Below, in pieces: positions 19,159-29,431 of a DNA stretch of 64,000 nt. The DNA is taken from the NCBI GenBank assembly GCA_002215645.1, contig NGFI01000002.1, positions 513,406-577,405 of the forward strand, given 5' to 3'. A program made the translations under genes and the position numbers. Below the pieces are notes generated by a model. It was given only the letters and a program-made list of their open reading frames with translations, made no database searches and had not been told where the DNA came from. The number at the start of each line of letters is the position of its first letter. Position 1 is the first letter of the stretch. This stretch comes from Gemmatimonadetes bacterium 2013_60CM_65_52 (GTDB lineage Bacteria > Gemmatimonadota > Gemmatimonadetes > Gemmatimonadales > Gemmatimonadaceae).

Positions 19159-19965
19159 ATGCGTCCATCAAGGCACTTTCAGCACGTGCTCGCCGGTACG
19201 AGCGCCCTCATCTTTGCTGGTGCGCAGGTCGCACCGAGCTCGTCCGCGACGGGGCCCGTGCTCGAGGCCGCCGCTGCATTCGTGTCGCCGCCGGCAAGCC
19301 CATCTGCAAACGTACACCCCACGAACAGCGTCGCCGCCGTCACGCATTCGGCTCTCGTCGCATTCACGAACGTGGTTCGGCCGCTCAGTCATCCGCAGGC
19401 CCTCGAGAGTGCGTTTCACAGCTATTTCGCGTTCAGGGCGGCGCACGCCGACGACGTGCGGAAACCATATCTGTACTTCGTCGATTACGGCCTCGCCAGC
19501 ACGCAGCCGCGCGGCTACGTGTTCGACATGGAGAAGCTGACGATCGTCGACGGCCCCTTCACGGTTGCACACGGTCGCGGATCATCCGTGTCGCAGTACG
19601 GTGTCCCGACGCGCTTCTCGAATTACTCGGGAAGCAGCACCACGTCGCTCGGCCTGTACGTCGCGCAGTCGACCTACGACTTTCACGGGCACGCCGGCGG
19701 CGGAACGTACAGCGCCCTCGGCATGCGACTTCAGGGCGTGTCGCGCGGATTCAACGACCAGGCGCTTGCACGCGGCGTCGTGGCGCACGGCGCTCCGTAC
19801 GTGACCGCGACGAAAGCGGGCCGCAGTCAGGGCTGTCCCGCAATGGAGCCCGCGCGCGCGCAGCGCTTGCTGCCCAAGCTCGCGGATGGCGGTCTGGTGT
19901 TTCTCTTCGCGCCCGATGCCACGTGGCTGCAACATGATCCATGGGTGAGTGCGACGACCGACTGA
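19159..19965 (+). CDS. YkuD_2-type murein L,D-transpeptidase-like protein
   Basis: A 268-residue exported protein with an N-terminal signal (AGTSALIFAGAQVAPSSSA). The C-terminal half has the YkuD_2 family pattern: YLYFVDYGLAS, VAHGRGSSVSQYGVPTRFSN, then VVAHGAPYVTATKAGRSQGCPA with His and Cys226 as probable catalytic residues. This is a different branch from the L,D-transpeptidase at 11321. AGGAG lies just upstream of the ATG. A second overlapping frame (19107-19937) is a shadow. Acts presumably on peptidoglycan in the periplasm. Confidence 0.85.
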   Translation: MRPSRHFQHVLAGTSALIFAGAQVAPSSSATGPVLEAAAAFVSPPASPSANVHPTNSVAAVTHSALVAFTNVVRPLSHPQALESAFHSYFAFRAAHADDVRKPYLYFVDYGLASTQPRGYVFDMEKLTIVDGPFTVAHGRGSSVSQYGVPTRFSNYSGSSTTSLGLYVAQSTYDFHGHAGGGTYSALGMRLQGVSRGFNDQALARGVVAHGAPYVTATKAGRSQGCPAMEPARAQRLLPKLADGGLVFLFAPDATWLQHDPWVSATTD

Positions 19966-20028: not shown

Positions 20029-20216
20029 CTGCTCGTGGCTCCCCTTTCGCGTGCCGAGATCCGCCGCTACGATGAACGACTCTCCGCACCCACGGTACCG
20101 CGCGCGCCTGTGACCCATCCGCGCGAAACCGGGTGAGTGTGTACGTAGGTCGCGTTCCTCGAGCGGCAGTTTGCAGTTTGAGCGGACGAACATTCCTCCA
20201 GACAGGATTTCCTTTC

Positions 20217-23200
20217 ATGCGAATGGTGCCAGCCAGGATGGCGGCGAACGCCGTGGCGTTTGCGCTTCTGTTCCTGATCTCGACCGCCGGCTTCGCTGCG
20301 GCCCAGGGCACGATCACCGGACGGGTGACTGCTCAGGGTACCGGCGAGGCCATCCTCGAAACACGTGTGCTCGTCGTCGGTACGAGCCTCGTGGCGACCA
20401 CAGGGACCGACGGCCGCTACACCCTCCGCGGCGTGCCGAATGGCGCGCAACAGATCCGCGTTCTCCGCGTCGGCTTCGCCGAGCAGAAAAAGGGCGTCGA
20501 CGTGGCGGCCGGTCAGACGGCGACACTGGACTTCGTGTTGTCGGCCGTCGTGGTCAAGCTCGCGGAAGTGGTGACGACGGCGACGGGTGAGGCGCGCCGC
20601 GTCGAGCTGGGCAATACCGTGAGTAACATCAACGCGGCGCAGCGCACCGCGACGGCGCCGGTGAAGAGCCTCGCTGACGTGCTCGCCGGCCAGGCGCCCG
20701 GCGTGCAGGTCGCATCGGGATCCGTCACCGGGTCGGGCGCGCGGGTCCGCATTCGCGGAACGAGCTCGCTCTCCTTGTCGAGCGATCCGATTTACGTCAT
20801 CGACGGCGTGCGCATGACCAGCTCCACCGGCTCCGTGAGCCCGAACATCTTCGTCGGCTCCGGCGACGGACGCGGCACGCAGACGCGCGCGCTCGACATC
20901 AATCCGGACGACATCGAGAACATCGAGATCGTGAAGGGACCGTCGGCGGCGACGTTGTACGGCACCGACGCGGCAAACGGCGTCATCGTGATCACCACGA
21001 AGCACGGTCGCGGCGGCCCGCAAAAATGGACGGCGTTCGGGGAAACCGGGCTGCTGAAGGATCGCAACACCTATCCGACGGCGTACACCACCCTCGTAAA
21101 GGGTGCGACGGCCCTGAGCCAGATCTGTCGCCTCACGGCGCAGGCGGCGGGGACCTGCACGCCCGACTCGCTGCGCTCGTACAGTCTGTTCACGGATCCG
21201 ACGGCATCTCCCATCGGCAGCGGCTCGCGCCGCCAGGGCGGCGTGCAACTCAGCGGAGGATCGGAGACGCTCCGCTACTTCTCGTCGGGACAGTTCGAGG
21301 ACGAGATCGGTGTCTATCAGATTCCGTCATACGAGATCTCGCGGCTCGACACGATTGGCGGCACCCGCGAAGAATGGATTCATCCCAATCGCCTCTCGCG
21401 CCAGAATCTTCGGGCGAACATCAACGCGTCGCCGAGCGGCTCACTCGACGTCTCGGTGAACACGGGCTTCGTGCACAGCACGACGCGCATTCCGCAGACG
21501 GACAACAACTCGCTCGGGCTTCTTTCGCATGCGTACGGCGGCCCGGGCTTCGTCAGCATGCCGAGCGTGGGCTACAACCTCAGCTCGACGGGGGCGCAAT
21601 TGCACGGTTATCGCGCGTCCACGCCTGGCGACATCTTCCAGAACACCACGACGCAGGAGATCAACCGCTTCATCGGCAGCACGAATGCGAACTGGCGTCC
21701 GATCTCCTGGCTGGCGAACCGCGCCAACGTCGGCATCGACTACACGGCGCGCCAGGATCAACAGCTGTGCCGCCGGGGGACGTGTGCCGACATCGGCAGC
21801 ACGCGGCTCGGGTTGGTCGAGGACGACCGCGCGAGCATCAACACCTTCTCGGCGGATGTCGGCAGCACGGCGACGTTCGCTCCGGCCGCATCGATGAACT
21901 TCAAGACCACCGTTGGTGCGCAGTACGTGAATGCGTACTCGGGCCGCAACGGCTCGGGCACCAGCAATCTCGCGCCGGGCACGCAGACGGTGAGTGCGGG
22001 GGCCACGCCGTTTTCCGACGAGGCGACGTCCTCGAGCCGCACTCTGGGTCTGTTCATCGAGGAAGCCGCCGCGTTTCGCGATCGGCTCTTCCTCACGGCC
22101 GCGCTTCGCACGGACCAGAACAGCGCGTTCGGCACGAACTTCCAGCGCGTCGTCTACCCGAAGCTGAGCGCGTCGTATCTCATCAGCGAAGAGTCGTTCT
22201 TCCCCAAGCCTCGCTTCCTGTCGGAGCTTCGCCTCCGCGCCGCGCTCGGTGAATCGGGCGTGCAGCCCGGGCCGCTCGACGCGCTGCGCTTCTACGCGCC
22301 GGCGACCGTAAACATCAACGCCGTGGATCAGCCCGCCGTGCAGTTTTCGACGCTCGGCAACTCCGACCTGCGCCCCGAGCGCGCTCGCGAGTTCGAGGGC
22401 GGGTTCGACGCGCGGATGTTCGATAGCCGCGTCACGCTCGAGGCGACCTACTACAGCAAGGTGACGAAGGATGCGCTGATCTCCGCGGTGATCCCGCCGT
22501 CCGCGGGCTCCGGCGCCACGACGCGCCGGCAGAATCTCGGCTCCGTCAAGAACGCGGGCGCCGAGATGAGCTTGAATGCCCAGCTCGTCGACCGCCGGAA
22601 CTTCGCTTGGAGCACCACGCTGAGCGGCTCGATGAACGAGAACAAGCTCGTGACGCTCGGCGAGGGCATTCAGCCCATCGTCGGCGCGACCATTCGCCAG
22701 GTGCCGGGCTTTCCGCTGAACGGCTACTGGCAGCGTCAGATCCTGAGCTACGACGACAAGGACAAGAACGGCATCATCACAGCCAGCGAAGTCGTCGTGG
22801 ACACCGCCTTCTCGTATATCGGCTACTCCATTCCGCGCTACGAAGCGACGCTGAGCAACGGCATCGAGACGTTCAACCGGAAGGTGCGCATCAACGCGAT
22901 GTTCGACTACAAGGGCGGCAACATGCTGTTGAACGGCACGGAGCGCATTCGCTGTCAGAACCGCAACAACTGCCGCGGTCTCTTCGACCAGACGGCGCCG
23001 CTGTTCGAGCAGGCACGTGTCGTCGCGCTGCGCGACGATCCGTCGCGGACGCAGGCCGGATACATGGAGGGCGCCGGCTTCGTGCGCTTCCGTGAGCTGT
23101 CGGTCACCGCGGACATGCCGCAGATCGTCGCGGCGCATCTGCGCGCGAGCACGGCGAGCATCACCTTCGCCGGCCGGAACCTGTTCAAATGGACGAGCTA

Positions 23201-23324
23201 CAGCGGCATCGATCCGGAGAGCAATGCAGACGCGGGCGGCGGCGGAACGCTGAGCGCACCGAGCGATTTCCAGACGTCACCTCCTGTGACGTTCTACACC
23301 GTTCGACTCAATCTCGGCTTCTGA
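20217..23324 (+). CDS. SusC/RagA-type TonB-linked outer-membrane transporter
   Basis: A 1,035-residue protein. Signal peptide to ~31 (FALLFLISTAGFAAAQG), a carboxypeptidase-regulatory-like domain at ~32-105 (GTITGRVTAQGTGEAIL), a TonB plug at ~115-240 with the SusC signature RIRGTSSLSLSSDPIYVIDG, then a 22-strand-type beta barrel ending in an aromatic C-terminus (YTVRLNLGF). The ATG at 20217 is chosen because it begins the signal peptide; an upstream in-frame codon exists at 20133. Forms an energy-driven uptake pore with the SusD-like lipoprotein encoded 22 bases downstream. Cargo is unknown. Confidence 0.94.
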   Translation: MRMVPARMAANAVAFALLFLISTAGFAAAQGTITGRVTAQGTGEAILETRVLVVGTSLVATTGTDGRYTLRGVPNGAQQIRVLRVGFAEQKKGVDVAAGQTATLDFVLSAVVVKLAEVVTTATGEARRVELGNTVSNINAAQRTATAPVKSLADVLAGQAPGVQVASGSVTGSGARVRIRGTSSLSLSSDPIYVIDGVRMTSSTGSVSPNIFVGSGDGRGTQTRALDINPDDIENIEIVKGPSAATLYGTDAANGVIVITTKHGRGGPQKWTAFGETGLLKDRNTYPTAYTTLVKGATALSQICRLTAQAAGTCTPDSLRSYSLFTDPTASPIGSGSRRQGGVQLSGGSETLRYFSSGQFEDEIGVYQIPSYEISRLDTIGGTREEWIHPNRLSRQNLRANINASPSGSLDVSVNTGFVHSTTRIPQTDNNSLGLLSHAYGGPGFVSMPSVGYNLSSTGAQLHGYRASTPGDIFQNTTTQEINRFIGSTNANWRPISWLANRANVGIDYTARQDQQLCRRGTCADIGSTRLGLVEDDRASINTFSADVGSTATFAPAASMNFKTTVGAQYVNAYSGRNGSGTSNLAPGTQTVSAGATPFSDEATSSSRTLGLFIEEAAAFRDRLFLTAALRTDQNSAFGTNFQRVVYPKLSASYLISEESFFPKPRFLSELRLRAALGESGVQPGPLDALRFYAPATVNINAVDQPAVQFSTLGNSDLRPERAREFEGGFDARMFDSRVTLEATYYSKVTKDALISAVIPPSAGSGATTRRQNLGSVKNAGAEMSLNAQLVDRRNFAWSTTLSGSMNENKLVTLGEGIQPIVGATIRQVPGFPLNGYWQRQILSYDDKDKNGIITASEVVVDTAFSYIGYSIPRYEATLSNGIETFNRKVRINAMFDYKGGNMLLNGTERIRCQNRNNCRGLFDQTAPLFEQARVVALRDDPSRTQAGYMEGAGFVRFRELSVTADMPQIVAAHLRASTASITFAGRNLFKWTSYSGIDPESNADAGGGGTLSAPSDFQTSPPVTFYTVRLNLGF

Positions 23325-23346: not shown

Positions 23347-24720
23347 ATGAAGATCTCGATCAGACATCGCGGCCGGACAGCAGCGATGCTCGGCGTCCTG
23401 CTGCTCGCGGCGAGCGGGTGTCACGCCATCAGTGACCCGCTCCTCGATGCGCCGCAGCCGGACATCATCAATCCGAACGACGTGCAGAACGCGGACGGTG
23501 CCGAGGCGGCGCGTGTCGGCGCCATCGGTCGGCTCAAGACCATGACGGCGGGCGACGAGAGTACCTGGATCATGGGCGGACTCTTCGCCGACGAATGGAA
23601 GTCCAGCGACACCTTTCAGCAGCGGGACGAGACGGATCAGCGTCTCGTCGATCCGACGAACGCGCAGATCACCACGGCCTTCCGCTTCATCCATCGGGCT
23701 CGTCTGTCGTCGATGCTGGCCATCGGGCTGCTGCGGAAGTACAAGCCGGCACCTGCGTCGAACGTGGGTATGATGTTCTTCGTGAAGGGATTTGCCGAGC
23801 TGCAGTCGGCGCAGGACTTCTGCGATGCGCAGATTTTCAGCGACGCCACGGCGGAACCGATTCAGTATGGGTCGCCGATTACGGTGGCTCAAGCGTTCCA
23901 ACTCGCGTCGGCGTCGTTCGATTCCGCCCTCGCCAACGCGGGTACGGATGCGGGCAGCGCGCTCGTGAACAACCTTGCGAAGCTCGGCAAGGCACGCGCG
24001 CAGATCGGGTTGAAGAACTACGCGGGTGCGGCAACGTTGGTGGCCACGGTGCCGACGAACTTCGTGTTCAACGAGACCTACCTCCAGGTCTCGGGCGACA
24101 ACGGGATCTGGGCGCTCAACAACAGCGTCAAGCGGTACACGGTGCAGGATTCGATCGAGCGGAACGGCGCTCTCGCGGGTACCGCCATCCCGAACGCCCT
24201 TCCGTTCGTTTCGGCCAAGGACCCGCGCGTTCCGACGTCGCGGCCGACCACACGTGGCTTCGATGGAGTGACGCTCTTTGACGCGCAGCAGATCTGGCCC
24301 ACGCGTGAGACGGCGGTTGCGCTCCTGTCTGGCGTAGAGGCTCGGCTCGACGAAGCGGAGGCGGCGCTCAAGGCCGGCGACGTTGCGACGTATCTGCAGA
24401 AGCTCAACGACCTGCGTGCGGCCACCGGCGCGAACAGCGGCGGCGTGGCGGGACTGACTCCGCTCGCCGATCCGGGCACCCAGACAGCGCGCGAGGACCT
24501 GCTGTTCCGCGAGCGCGCATTCTGGAATTTCGGGCGTGGCTCGCGGCTATTCGATCTTCGCCGTCGCATTCGTGATTACGGCCGCGCAACGACGAGCTTC
24601 CCCGGCTCGGGAGCGCCGTTCCACAAGGGCGGAAATTACGGAACGCAGCTCAGTCTCCCGATTCCGCAGGCGGAGCTGAACAACGCGAACGCACAGAGCT
24701 GCGACGCGACCAAGCCGTAG
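23347..24720 (+). CDS. SusD/RagB-like outer-membrane lipoprotein
   Basis: A 457-residue lipoprotein (signal MLGVLLLAASGC, lipid at the Cys). Helical, TPR-like SusD features include GRLKTMTAGDESTWIMGGLF, VKGFAELQSAQDFC, LVNNLAKLGKARAQIGL and the late RERAFWNFGRGSRLFDLRR followed by a KGGNYG loop. SusD proteins form the lid over the SusC barrel and bind the substrate at the cell surface. GGAGGA lies 12 bases before the ATG. It is the last gene of the two-gene operon and is closed by a strong hairpin. Confidence 0.9.
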   Translation: MKISIRHRGRTAAMLGVLLLAASGCHAISDPLLDAPQPDIINPNDVQNADGAEAARVGAIGRLKTMTAGDESTWIMGGLFADEWKSSDTFQQRDETDQRLVDPTNAQITTAFRFIHRARLSSMLAIGLLRKYKPAPASNVGMMFFVKGFAELQSAQDFCDAQIFSDATAEPIQYGSPITVAQAFQLASASFDSALANAGTDAGSALVNNLAKLGKARAQIGLKNYAGAATLVATVPTNFVFNETYLQVSGDNGIWALNNSVKRYTVQDSIERNGALAGTAIPNALPFVSAKDPRVPTSRPTTRGFDGVTLFDAQQIWPTRETAVALLSGVEARLDEAEAALKAGDVATYLQKLNDLRAATGANSGGVAGLTPLADPGTQTAREDLLFRERAFWNFGRGSRLFDLRRRIRDYGRATTSFPGSGAPFHKGGNYGTQLSLPIPQAELNNANAQSCDATKP

Positions 24721-24787: not shown

Positions 24788-27700
24788 TTACGGCGCAATA
24801 CCTGGCCGATAACGGCGAATCGTGCTTCGCTCAATCTCCGATTCACTCCACGCCACCGGCTTGAGCTCCTTCCGCGCAAACATCGCCGCCTGGTCGGCGT
24901 GGTACGGCGAGTCCGGACGCGGGCTTTCACCATATGCCAGTACCGAATACGCGTGCGGCCGATCAGAACCGAATTCGATGGCCAGGATCCACCCATCGCC
25001 GCCTGTGGCCGAGCGCTTGCCGTCAGGGTCGTCCTTGAACCACAGGACGCGAAAGCAGCCGAGGTCGCCGTTGCAGCCGCCGACCGGGACATCGACGTCG
25101 CCGACGCGCACACGATGGACGTCGCCCCACGCAACGTCGAACGCGCCATACCGCTTCGTCGCTTCTCGCACCGCCCAGGAGAATGCGTCCGTCGCTCGGC
25201 TCGCAGTGCGAATGCCGTGCGGCGTGCTCGTCGGGGCGGACGCGGACCATGCCACGGCGAACATGGTGTCAGGGCGCGCGCCCGCCACATAGCGCCGCCA
25301 CCAGAGCTCAAAGAGCACACCGCCCTTGCTGTCCGGTGCTGTGGTGCCGTCCCACTTCGCGATGACGTCGATCGCACGCAGCGTATCTCCGCCGGGATGC
25401 GTCGCACGAACGAGGGACACGAGATCATCACGCACGCGCTCCGCCAGCAACATGCGATAGGAGTGCTTCAAGGTCAGTACGTCCTGGAGGTTCAACTTTC
25501 GATCCGAGTCGATCAGCGAGATCGCGAGCTGACTGCGGAGACCCAGTCGCGGCGACGGGAACCATGACGGATACGACGCAGGATCGAGTGGCTCGCGCAT
25601 GTTGGTGAACCAGGGCGCGTCGTTCTCGTTGTGGACGTATCCGCCCCGTGGATTCAGCACCTGTGGCAGCGAGTCGAACGGCACGTAGTGCGTCCAGATG
25701 TCCGTCACGCCGCGCGCCTGTACGACGACGCTGTCCGAGCCCCTGCCCTGCGGAAGCGACGGTACGGTACCGTTCCAGAGATACAGGATGTTGCCAGCAC
25801 GATCCGCATAGGTGAAGCTCGAGTTGAGCCGTGCGCGCATACCCATGGCGCCCTTCCACTCGGCCAGTGAGCGCGCGCGCATCATCCGAAGAAACTGCTC
25901 TCCGGCGCGAAAGTCGCCGTCCATGCCGGCGCGGAGGACGTAAAGCTTCGTACTGTCGCGATGCACGACAGGTCCATACGGTGTGCGCGCGATCTCACGT
26001 GTTTCGATCGCGAGGGAATCACCGCTCCGGTACTCGACGCTGATCCTGTCGCGCAGAACGGCATGAGTCGCACCGTCGAGCAGATAGTGGTCCGGCCGCG
26101 CTCGATCGAGATCGAGCGCATACACCTGTCCAAGCAGTGGATCGTTGTTCGTGGTGGACCAGCCAAGGTCGCGGTTGAAGCCGCCAATAACGCCGAACGG
26201 GCCGCCGATGCGGAAGTCGCCGTAGAAGTCGAGCGTGTCCTTGACCGCTACGTGCGCCTCGTAGTAGCCGGCACTCCACGCGAGGTGTGGATTGCGCAGC
26301 AGGATCGCGCGCTTCGACGTCGTGCGGCTCGGCGCAAATGCCCAGGCGTTCGATCCCTCGTCCGGGACATCGAGCCACGATGTCATTGGTTCATCGCTTT
26401 CGGCCGGACTCGCCTGGGCCGCATCCGGTTGCGTGCGAACACGACGAAACGACGGATCGATCGACGCAAGTGCGCGGGCAGCCTGCGCCGGCGATGCGAC
26501 GTAGACATCGTGCGCCAGGACGTCATAGCCGGTGAAGCGCGGCACGAAGTGCGCGGGGAATTCCGCCGCGTGCAACTCGACGTAGCGATTCACGCCCGAA
26601 GCGAAGCCCTCGTACACAGCACGTGTTTCCTGATCGAGCAGCGCGTATGTCTCGACGGCACGCGTCCACGCAAGGCGCGCCGCGAAGTCCCGTTCGATGC
26701 TGTCGCGCCCGAACCAGCGTCCCATCTCGCCGCGCGCCTTGATCAGATCGAAGGCGACGCGGGCGCCATAGTCCTCGGACTGCACGTATGCGAGGGCGAA
26801 CTCCGCGGCGGCGAGATTGTCGGCCTTGATGTGCGGAACACCGTGCGTCGTCCGGCGGATCTCGACGTGCGACGCGTGGTCGATCGTCGCATTACCGGAT
26901 CCCGAACGCCGAAGCGCACGTCCGGCGAGTGCTCCCGAATAATGGCCGCCGTCTACCGCGACCGTTCCGTTGACCAATACGTAGCGCATGCCGACCGCGA
27001 GCTCTTCGGGATGCACGTATGTCGCCTTGTCGGCGAACGTGTTCGGGTCGAAGGCCACCACGTCCGCGAACGCACCAATTCTGAGCACGCCGCGGCCGCG
27101 GAGCCCGAGCGTCTCCGCGGTCAACTGACTCGAACGCTGAACCGCCTGCGGAAGCGCGAGGAGCTTGCGACGATAGACGTACTCCCTGAACACGCGTGGA
27201 AACGTTCCGTACTTGCGCGGATGTCCCGTGCTGCCGTCGGAGCCTGTCATCACCCACGGTTGCACGAGGAACTTCTCGATATCCGCGTCCTTCATGTTGA
27301 AGGACGCGACACTCGATCCGCCGTTCGTGATGATCTGGAGCGCGGCATCGATCGGTGACTCCTTTCGTGCAACCGCGATGTCCGCCAGCGTCTTTCCAAC
27401 GATCGACGAGTCGCGCGACGACGTCATCAACAGTGAGGCTGCGCCGCCGCGCCGCGTGAGATTCCGCTCCATGTCGCTCACGAGGCGCCGCCGAATGGCG
27501 GGATCAGCAATGCGCGCACGCAACGAGTCGCCACCACCTTCCTCGGCCCAGCGTGGCAGGAGCGCCGCACTCACACTCGTCCCCGAAGCACTGTACGGAT
27601 ACTGATCCGCCGTGACCGTCAGTCCCTCCCGCCGCGCCGCACGCACCAGTGCGATGACCGAATCCGACTGCCCCCAGACATCCGCGCCGAGTGCCTTGAT

Positions 27701-28459
27701 GTGAGAGATGTGCACGGGGATGTGTGCTTCGCGCGCGACGCGGAGCGTCTCGTTGATCGACCCGAGGAGACCGATGGTATACGAGCTTTCGTCGCGCATG
27801 TGCGAGTCGTAGATGCCGCCGTCCTTCGCGGCGACCTTCGCGAGCTCTATGACCTCCTCTGTGGTGGAGTAGCTGCCGGGCGCATAGTACAAGCCGGTGG
27901 AGAGGCCGAGCGCACCCTCGGACATGCCGCGCGCCACGATGGCGCGCATCGAATCCATTTGCGCAGGCGTCGGCGCGGCGGCCGACATCCCGAGCACACG
28001 GCGTCTGACGTCTCCCTGAGGGACGTACAACGCAGCGTTGGTGCCGATGCCCTCTCGTTGCCAGGCGTCCAGCGTGCGGCCGATGTCGAGCGTGCCGCCG
28101 CCGTCGTTGTTGGTGATGACGGTCGTGACGCCCTGCATGAGATAGTTGACGTTGCCGCGGCGACGCGGATCGGAGAGATCGCCCTGCGTGTGCGTGTGCG
28201 GGTCGATGAATCCCGGCGCCACGACGAGCCCACGCGCGTTGATCGTGCGCGCTGTGGTCACGCGGGCCGTGCGTGCGTCGCCGATGAAGACGATGCGATC
28301 ACCTGCAATGCCCACATCGGCACGACGCGCGGGTGAGCCCGTGCCATCGACGACTGTGCCGCTCCGGATCAGGATATCGAGGCGCTGTTGGGCGGCGATC
28401 GGCGTCGCCGCGACAGCGATGGCCAGGAGCGCGCCCGCGAGCTGAAAGCGAAGGGTCAT
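24788..28459 (-). CDS. D-aminoacylase-like amidohydrolase fused to penicillin-acylase-like Ntn hydrolase
   Basis: One open frame of 1,223 residues from the ATG at 28459. A signal peptide ends near IAAQQ. Residues ~25-525 form an N-acyl-D-amino-acid deacylase-type amidohydrolase: PGFIDPHTH (His88, His90), IYDSHMRDES, HISHIKALG and MTGSDGSTGHP supply metal ligands, but the usual cysteine of GNCG is Asp119 in TNNDGG. After a short linker, residues ~538-1223 match the S45 penicillin acylase family: VEIRRTTHGVPHIKADN, the autocleavage and nucleophile site EGSNAWAF (Ser703), and GGYVHNENDAPW with the likely oxyanion Asn. The product is probably a periplasmic pro-enzyme that cleaves itself before Ser703. 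It converges on SusD. Confidence 0.88.
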   Translation of the reverse strand: MTLRFQLAGALLAIAVAATPIAAQQRLDILIRSGTVVDGTGSPARRADVGIAGDRIVFIGDARTARVTTARTINARGLVVAPGFIDPHTHTQGDLSDPRRRGNVNYLMQGVTTVITNNDGGGTLDIGRTLDAWQREGIGTNAALYVPQGDVRRRVLGMSAAAPTPAQMDSMRAIVARGMSEGALGLSTGLYYAPGSYSTTEEVIELAKVAAKDGGIYDSHMRDESSYTIGLLGSINETLRVAREAHIPVHISHIKALGADVWGQSDSVIALVRAARREGLTVTADQYPYSASGTSVSAALLPRWAEEGGGDSLRARIADPAIRRRLVSDMERNLTRRGGAASLLMTSSRDSSIVGKTLADIAVARKESPIDAALQIITNGGSSVASFNMKDADIEKFLVQPWVMTGSDGSTGHPRKYGTFPRVFREYVYRRKLLALPQAVQRSSQLTAETLGLRGRGVLRIGAFADVVAFDPNTFADKATYVHPEELAVGMRYVLVNGTVAVDGGHYSGALAGRALRRSGSGNATIDHASHVEIRRTTHGVPHIKADNLAAAEFALAYVQSEDYGARVAFDLIKARGEMGRWFGRDSIERDFAARLAWTRAVETYALLDQETRAVYEGFASGVNRYVELHAAEFPAHFVPRFTGYDVLAHDVYVASPAQAARALASIDPSFRRVRTQPDAAQASPAESDEPMTSWLDVPDEGSNAWAFAPSRTTSKRAILLRNPHLAWSAGYYEAHVAVKDTLDFYGDFRIGGPFGVIGGFNRDLGWSTTNNDPLLGQVYALDLDRARPDHYLLDGATHAVLRDRISVEYRSGDSLAIETREIARTPYGPVVHRDSTKLYVLRAGMDGDFRAGEQFLRMMRARSLAEWKGAMGMRARLNSSFTYADRAGNILYLWNGTVPSLPQGRGSDSVVVQARGVTDIWTHYVPFDSLPQVLNPRGGYVHNENDAPWFTNMREPLDPASYPSWFPSPRLGLRSQLAISLIDSDRKLNLQDVLTLKHSYRMLLAERVRDDLVSLVRATHPGGDTLRAIDVIAKWDGTTAPDSKGGVLFELWWRRYVAGARPDTMFAVAWSASAPTSTPHGIRTASRATDAFSWAVREATKRYGAFDVAWGDVHRVRVGDVDVPVGGCNGDLGCFRVLWFKDDPDGKRSATGGDGWILAIEFGSDRPHAYSVLAYGESPRPDSPYHADQAAMFARKELKPVAWSESEIERSTIRRYRPGIAP

Positions 28460-28501
28460 GCGAGTGGGATTGGGGTCTCCCAACCTACGCGCACCGCGCT
28501 G

Positions 28502-29431
28502 CTATTGCTGGGGCCGACTCATCGCTGAAATGAGTCGCGCCGCGACTCGCTCCACGCGCTCGAAGAATGGGTCCGATTCCTTGCCGAGCCAATCGCGCTT
28601 GAGGGACGAGTACGCGCGCTTGCCCCGCTGCTGGAGGTGGTGCGTGAGCACCGGCGGCGCGGTTTTGCCTTCGGCACTCGAGGGCGCGATCTCTTGTAGA
28701 AACACGTGGACGTCATGCGAGTCGCCCGCAATCTCCTGGAATTCCTCGAGATCCTTCACGATGGCACCCGCTCCGTACACTTCGCCAGTGACCGGCTCGA
28801 GCAGGTAGCGCAGTCGCTTCGCGGCGATGCGCGCCTCGTGGATTTCCTCGTGATCCGACCGCGAGTGAATTTTTTCCAGACTTCGACGTAGCTCGGCCGC
28901 GGCCTCTCCGAGGTGCGCCGCGAGCGCGTGGTCGAATCGGTCACCATCACGCGGCGAGCTTGCCCGCACGGCGGCGCAATACTGGGAGAGGCGGGTCGAG
29001 AGCGCGTCGTGGACTTCATCCAGTTCGGCGGCGGCATCCGCGGCGAGATCGAGCGCCTTTTCCGCGCGGGCCTCGAAATGCGCGATCAAGGTGTCGATCG
29101 CGTCGCGGTCGCTCCCGCGCAGGCGGCGGCGCTCCTTGCGGAGCCAATCGATGTGGACCTCGAGGTCGCGAGCCGGTCCGGTGTCCCGGGCAATGTCGCG
29201 GATATGCCGGCGGCGGCGCCCAGAAACGGACTCGGACATCTCCGTTTTCCAGAGTTGAAGCCAGCTGCGCAGCCGCCGGACGGCCACCCGGAATTTGTGC
29301 AGCGCGTCGTCGTCGTCCTTCCGGTGCTTCTCGAAGTGACGTGCGCCGTGCCGGGCCTTGTCGAGGAGGTCGAGGGCGGTGAGACGCGTGGCCCGCGAGG
29401 CGGGCTCGTTGAGCAGCTTGCGGCGAGGCAC
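28502..29431 (-). CDS. CHAD domain protein
   Basis: A 309-residue, highly helical and charged protein. Conserved histidines and basic residues of CHAD domains are visible: ALHKFRVAVRRLRSWLQLW in the N-terminal half and IHEARIAAKRLRYLLEPV in the C-terminal half. CHAD domains bind inorganic polyphosphate and localise to polyphosphate granules. The start is a GTG, placed 18 bases after the tag stop on the same strand. No partner CYTH domain is present in the protein. Confidence 0.9.
   Translation of the reverse strand: MPRRKLLNEPASRATRLTALDLLDKARHGARHFEKHRKDDDDALHKFRVAVRRLRSWLQLWKTEMSESVSGRRRRHIRDIARDTGPARDLEVHIDWLRKERRRLRGSDRDAIDTLIAHFEARAEKALDLAADAAAELDEVHDALSTRLSQYCAAVRASSPRDGDRFDHALAAHLGEAAAELRRSLEKIHSRSDHEEIHEARIAAKRLRYLLEPVTGEVYGAGAIVKDLEEFQEIAGDSHDVHVFLQEIAPSSAEGKTAPPVLTHHLQQRGKRAYSSLKRDWLGKESDPFFERVERVAARLISAMSRPQQ

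Follow-up and report, generated by a model that had tools for sequence, protein, structure and literature searches.

Which described enzymes come closest to the protein encoded at this locus? Its N-terminal half resembles the D-aminoacylase of Alcaligenes faecalis (PDB entry 1m7j), the N-acyl-D-glutamate deacylase 3gip and PpOngB, a GlcNAc1A deacetylase (9kb1), in fold, HxH motif, two His metal ligands, catalytic Asp, and Lys and Arg at carboxylate-binding positions. Subtype V amidohydrolases are defined by a Cys/His/His beta-metal site (PMC12017989). Its C-terminal half resembles the S45 penicillin-acylase-type hydrolases, among them the cephalosporin or glutaryl-7-ACA acylases (1keh, 3s8r and 4e55), the N-acyl-homoserine-lactone acylases PvdQ and MacQ, and D-succinylase (7eby), which belongs among the S45 enzymes (PMC11241749). 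A third point of comparison is offered by the Rosetta-stone gene-fusion enzymes of nutrient-uptake loci, in which genes that are neighbours in relatives become one chain adjoining a SusCD importer, as here. In the window, by which we mean the whole stretch of 64,000 nucleotides that was analysed (it lies in C2 of genome G000, a contig of 655 kb, from a soil bacterium of the Gemmatimonadota), one gene joins a D-aminoacylase-like domain (NAAD) to an S45 domain (PVA). Both halves belong to described kinds of enzyme; what appears new is that they are fused. The initial annotation knew of no characterised enzyme with this layout, and in the literature searched we too found nothing relevant to a NAAD-S45 fusion or its SusCD locus.

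The fused gene occupies positions 24788..28459 of the minus strand. Its open reading frame spans 24788-28483 if started at TTG; the natural start is the ATG at 28459, which opens onto a signal peptide and gives a protein of 1223 residues. Pfam places Amidohydro_3 at residues 71-501 (E 1.7e-18) and Penicil_amidase (PF01804) at residues 532-1210 (E 9.8e-112), the latter covering model positions 2-674/675 and thus a complete S45 fold. The nearest solved proteins by PDB sequence are D-aminoacylase for about residues 27-520 (E 5e-69) and cephalosporin acylase for about residues 534-1213 (E 9.7e-84). An AlphaFold2 model of the mature 1200-residue protein (pLDDT 81.4, pTM 0.60) contains both folds, as Foldseek also indicates: in structure comparison it matches the cephalosporin acylase 4e55 with Z 45.9 over 641 residues at 2.8 A, N-acyl-D-glutamate deacylase 3gip with Z 37.6 over 435 residues, and D-aminoacylase 1m7j with Z 36.4. 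Pfam, PDB matches and modelled folds thus agree with the initial annotation that one open frame joins a D-aminoacylase-type amidohydrolase to a complete S45 hydrolase. The boundaries that it gave, residues 25-525 and 538-1223, were essentially right and are better placed at about 24-520 and 529-1223. From Pfam, the PDB alignment and the fold match, the D-aminoacylase-like amidohydrolase domain comprises residues 24-520 (26900..28390, minus strand). By alignment and hydropathy it is followed by a linker of residues 521-528 (26876..26899, minus strand) that holds no signal peptide, and residues 508-525 of the full-length protein, around this linker, have low pLDDT in the model, which suits a tether. 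The S45 alpha-subunit and spacer, defined by PF01804, span residues 529-702 (26354..26875, minus strand), and the beta-subunit spans residues 703-1223 (24791..26353, minus strand), as set by an alignment to 1keh and 3s8r in which the columns were checked. The stretch 672-700 ahead of Ser703 is disordered in the model, which fits an S45 spacer.

Is the joint real? A stop or frameshift between residues 525 and 540, which the initial annotation had named as the point on which the fusion could fail, was sought at the junction of the frame and none was found. The same in-frame joint occurs in two further genomes, both from Gemmatimonadaceae; the named relatives are Gemmatimonadetes and Gemmatimonadaceae metagenome-assembled genomes (MAGs). 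G001 (JAQBPY010000117) encodes residues 239-1219 across the joint at 70% protein identity and G144 (JAICKA010000078) encodes residues 28-1142 at 67%, each with no stop. With the open frame in the window, these two genes rule out a sequencing error or hidden stop at the joint. An assembly or sequencing artefact could otherwise be entertained, given that the genomes are of MAG type and that the fused genes of G001 and G144 each end at a contig end, neither being complete; the window contig, however, is 655 kb long, and the architecture, together with the missing internal signal peptide described below, is common to three genomes of differing divergence, making an artefact extremely improbable. 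A junction query found the fusion in three of 179 family genomes (G000, G001 and G144) and in none of the order, class and phylum samples, where it would miss distant fusions. Separate orthologues in every close relative, the other outcome that the initial annotation had set against its proposal, is not what we see: two more genomes carry the fusion and many carry the genes unfused. Substitutions among the fused genes are about 0.5-0.58 at codon position 3 versus 0.16-0.27 elsewhere in both halves (for example, 0.21/0.16/0.52 by codon position in the PVA beta-subunit). This excess of differences at codon position 3 shows that purifying selection acts on both halves.

The signal peptides of fused and unfused genes differ in a way that bears on export. 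Residues 1-23 form a Sec-type signal peptide (MTLRFQLAGALLAIAVAATPIAA; 28391..28459, minus strand), the only one in the protein, with a cleavage site predicted from an A-x-A-like pattern. The hydropathy maximum is 2.22 at this N-terminus versus 0.51 around the junction, which bears out the earlier statement that one signal peptide serves the whole protein. In each of the 12 unfused PVA orthologues that were examined, a hydrophobic segment (14-residue hydropathy 1.3-2.6) lies directly ahead of the mature start 'HVEVRRT'; an equivalent internal segment was sought by hydropathy at the three fused junctions and found in none (values 0.5-0.7). Since no signal segment is present at the fused junctions, the fused S45 half could be exported to the periplasm only together with NAAD, on one polypeptide.

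What is the state of the NAAD active site? Alignment gives a metal and catalytic set of H88, H90, D119, H220, H253 and D408, in which the HxH motif (His88 and His90) and the catalytic Asp408 are kept, and the half contains a beta/alpha barrel with a small beta domain (Z 36-38 to 3gip, 9kb1 and 1m7j). Unlike these three enzymes, the fused protein is secreted, carries a C-terminal S45 acylase and has Asp119 in place of the Cys ligand. In the alignment to 1m7j, the Asp119 codon (28103..28105, minus strand) takes the place of the metal-binding Cys found in D-aminoacylases of subtype V; the beta-metal site is therefore Asp119/His220/His253 and not Cys/His/His. Because the Cys ligand is Asp119, we call this half D-aminoacylase-like and not a canonical subtype V enzyme. 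The Asp is present ('xDG') in all clade members in which the motif was readable, many of them stand-alone genes. As a separate observation, the NAAD orthologues in L021-L154 form a secreted D-aminoacylase-like clade with 'NDG' for 'NCG'. This Asp-for-Cys clade may represent an unrecognised metal-site subtype. Could the S45 half be the only active acylase, with the NAAD half non-catalytic or acting differently, as a binding domain, an export carrier or the catalyst of another amidohydrolase reaction? The replaced Cys, which defines the subtype V metal site, and NCBIfam matches that fall under curated cut-offs would suit such a role. Yet the Asp change is clade-wide and not confined to the fusion, the other ligands and the catalytic Asp are all kept, and Asp is able to bind zinc; likewise, Lys255, a Tyr near 287 and Arg415 are present at the carboxylate-binding positions reported for PpOngB. 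We judge an inactive or diverted NAAD half to be improbable.

In the S45 half, alignment to 1keh and 3s8r identifies Ser703 (beta1), His725 (beta23) and Asn946 (beta244) as the catalytic residues. Gly702-Ser703-Asn704 is invariant in 23 aligned rows, the Ser nucleophile following Gly at the alpha/beta boundary, which upholds the nucleophile named in the initial annotation; the aligned rows likewise show no variation at His725 and Asn946, the counterparts of His23-beta and Asn244-beta in the cephalosporin-acylase branch. The half thus shares with the cephalosporin or glutaryl-7-ACA acylases the whole fold (Z 44-46), Ser1-beta, His23-beta, Asn244-beta and the pre-nucleophile spacer. In contrast to those enzymes, it has no S45 signal peptide of its own, bears a NAAD domain on its alpha chain, and differs at two positions in the beta chain. 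The position of Glu455-beta, a Glu that is not required of all S45 enzymes, is Asp1155, and since the acid is retained its function may persist. The position of Arg57-beta, which we take to be the residue that binds the glutaryl group in cephalosporin acylase, aligns with Ile. PvdQ, MacQ and 7eby are alike in S45 fold and catalytic N-terminus (Z 31-40), but at just 22-27% identity and with no fused amidohydrolase their substrates are not transferable to the fused protein. Since a D-succinylase is found among the S45 enzymes, specificity of the S45 half for L substrates is not to be assumed, and a split of D for NAAD and L for PVA would be conjectural. Conjectural, too, is the suggestion of the initial annotation that one exported protein could deacylate both D- and L- or lipo-peptide substrates.

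In most relatives NAAD and PVA are separate genes, and their arrangement connects them to a SusC/SusD locus. NAAD-SusC-SusD-PVA stand unfused on one strand in G002, G087 and G088; SusC-SusD-PVA is found in G140 and L075, and PVA-SusC-SusD in G132. NAAD, SusCD and PVA also form a cluster at L118 and L081, two loci from Longimicrobiaceae. In G024 and G127, NAAD lies directly 5' of PVA, and in G127 the two genes share 4 bp (GTGA) that hold both the stop of NAAD and the GTG start of PVA. The reading frame of the G024 stand-alone acylase (L022, 4502-6588) is split in two by a frameshift or sequencing error; the adjoining NAAD gene is intact. An IclR regulator lies within the G088 locus, and G085 and G087 have proteins similar to it. 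Co-directional SusC and SusD genes come after the fusion in G001. The window encodes a SusC/RagA TonB-linked outer-membrane importer (20133..23324, plus strand; TIGR04056 430.9 bits, cut-off 368) and a SusD-like lipoprotein (23347..24720, plus strand) with 40-46% identity to the SusD of linked loci. The SusD_RagB match of the latter (E 0.0039) is under the Pfam cut-off, and its orthologues in L054 and L057 are above it. Of 38 matches in the window's genome to the SusC adjoining the G001 fusion, the window SusC ranks first. A truer SusCD orthologue elsewhere in that genome was considered and rejected, the neighbouring pair already being the best match. Several observations count against the explanation that we favor below, among them the Asp at the positions of the Cys metal ligand and of Glu455-beta and the incomplete state of the other two fused genes. 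In addition, the window pair adjoins the fusion convergently and not co-directionally; its SusC has 46-50% identity to the SusC of other loci, which are mostly 58-70% identical among themselves; and many NAAD and PVA orthologues are unlinked.

Did the fusion arise once? The NAAD tree places the G001 half, a partial sequence, as sister to a stand-alone gene of G005 (100/98). The PVA tree makes the G144 half sister to a stand-alone gene of G132 (99/96), and in it G000 and G001 group together with the unfused G085 outside. The AU test rejects the placing of all fused proteins in one clade for both NAAD (p 5e-5) and PVA (p 0.026), and with it a single fusion inherited by descent; for NAAD a clade of G000 and G001 alone is also rejected (p 0.005). 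To judge from the trees, the choice is between repeated fusion and a single fusion with later fissions and exchange of domains, with gene conversion or fission plus swapping possible, and several fusions appear to account for both trees better than one does. We prefer repeated fusion because fission would demand that the acylase regain a signal peptide. Separately, two same-genus genomes, G005 (L025) and G003 (L154), have a stand-alone NAAD (72-74%) and no close acylase orthologue, the best being 26-30% identical.

These histories bear on whether the joint means anything at all. Rearrangements might simply have joined two neighbouring exported enzymes with no common substrate, leaving independent domains on a functionless tether. 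Such an accident would be in keeping with the rarity of the joint, absent from most relatives and present in three of the 179 family genomes, and with linkers that are disordered in the model and differ from one fused protein to another in both length and sequence. Set against it, the joint has been retained among proteins 67-70% identical whose two halves are both constrained, by both trees it appears to have arisen more than once, and the genes so joined share a SusCD locus when unfused too, Longimicrobiaceae included. We therefore regard a fortuitous fusion as rather unlikely. The same joint in three species suggests that the two enzymes work on one imported nutrient.

Sequence comparison establishes the fusion, the folds, the conserved catalytic residues, the linkage to the locus and the fact that the internal signal peptide has been lost. 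The SusC/SusD locus, this lost signal peptide and the apparent repetition of the fusion had escaped the initial annotation. We propose, as the probable explanation, that the gene product is a two-domain N-acyl amidase that is exported, cleaves itself and serves an uptake locus of SusCD type, with both predicted sites acting on one class of N-acylated substrate. One exported pro-enzyme would have arisen by fusion of two N-acyl amidases that in relatives are members of a single SusC/SusD locus. First, the NAAD signal peptide would take the pro-enzyme across the inner membrane. Second, by analogy with S45 biochemistry, the S45 half would cleave itself between Gly702 and Ser703, yielding an alpha chain of about 680 residues (NAAD domain plus S45 alpha) and a beta chain of 521 residues, which would form a stable heterodimer with NAAD carried on the alpha chain. 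Because the alpha and beta chains are proposed to remain together, the NAAD domain would stay tethered to the S45 active site. Third, a metal-dependent and a Ser-dependent site, both presumably in the periplasm, would strip N-acyl groups from N-acylated amino acids or peptides, the substrate class for import by SusCD to which linkage and fusion point, acting in sequence or on complementary bonds or chirality. A bolder version, which we offer tentatively, is that repeated fusion in the same order with precise loss of the second signal reflects a need for both amidases on one SusCD-imported compound that is doubly N-acylated or N-acylated with mixed chirality, the tether making a two-site acylase, with an Asp-ligated variant of the metal site, that frees all of its amines.

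Finally, two biotechnologically used enzyme families are here linked by genome evidence and not by a guess: the fusion, the common SusCD locus and what seems to be repeated joining all point to a single class of substrate. What penicillin-acylase-type enzymes do naturally in soil bacteria is poorly settled and is now directly testable, and the fused gene is a ready-made two-domain acylase. Two flanking genes may also be noted. A YkuD_2 L,D-transpeptidase-type gene (19159-19965, plus strand) lies just upstream of the SusC/SusD pair, and a CHAD-domain gene (28502-29431, minus strand) precedes the fusion by 42 bp in the same orientation, so that the two may share a transcript.
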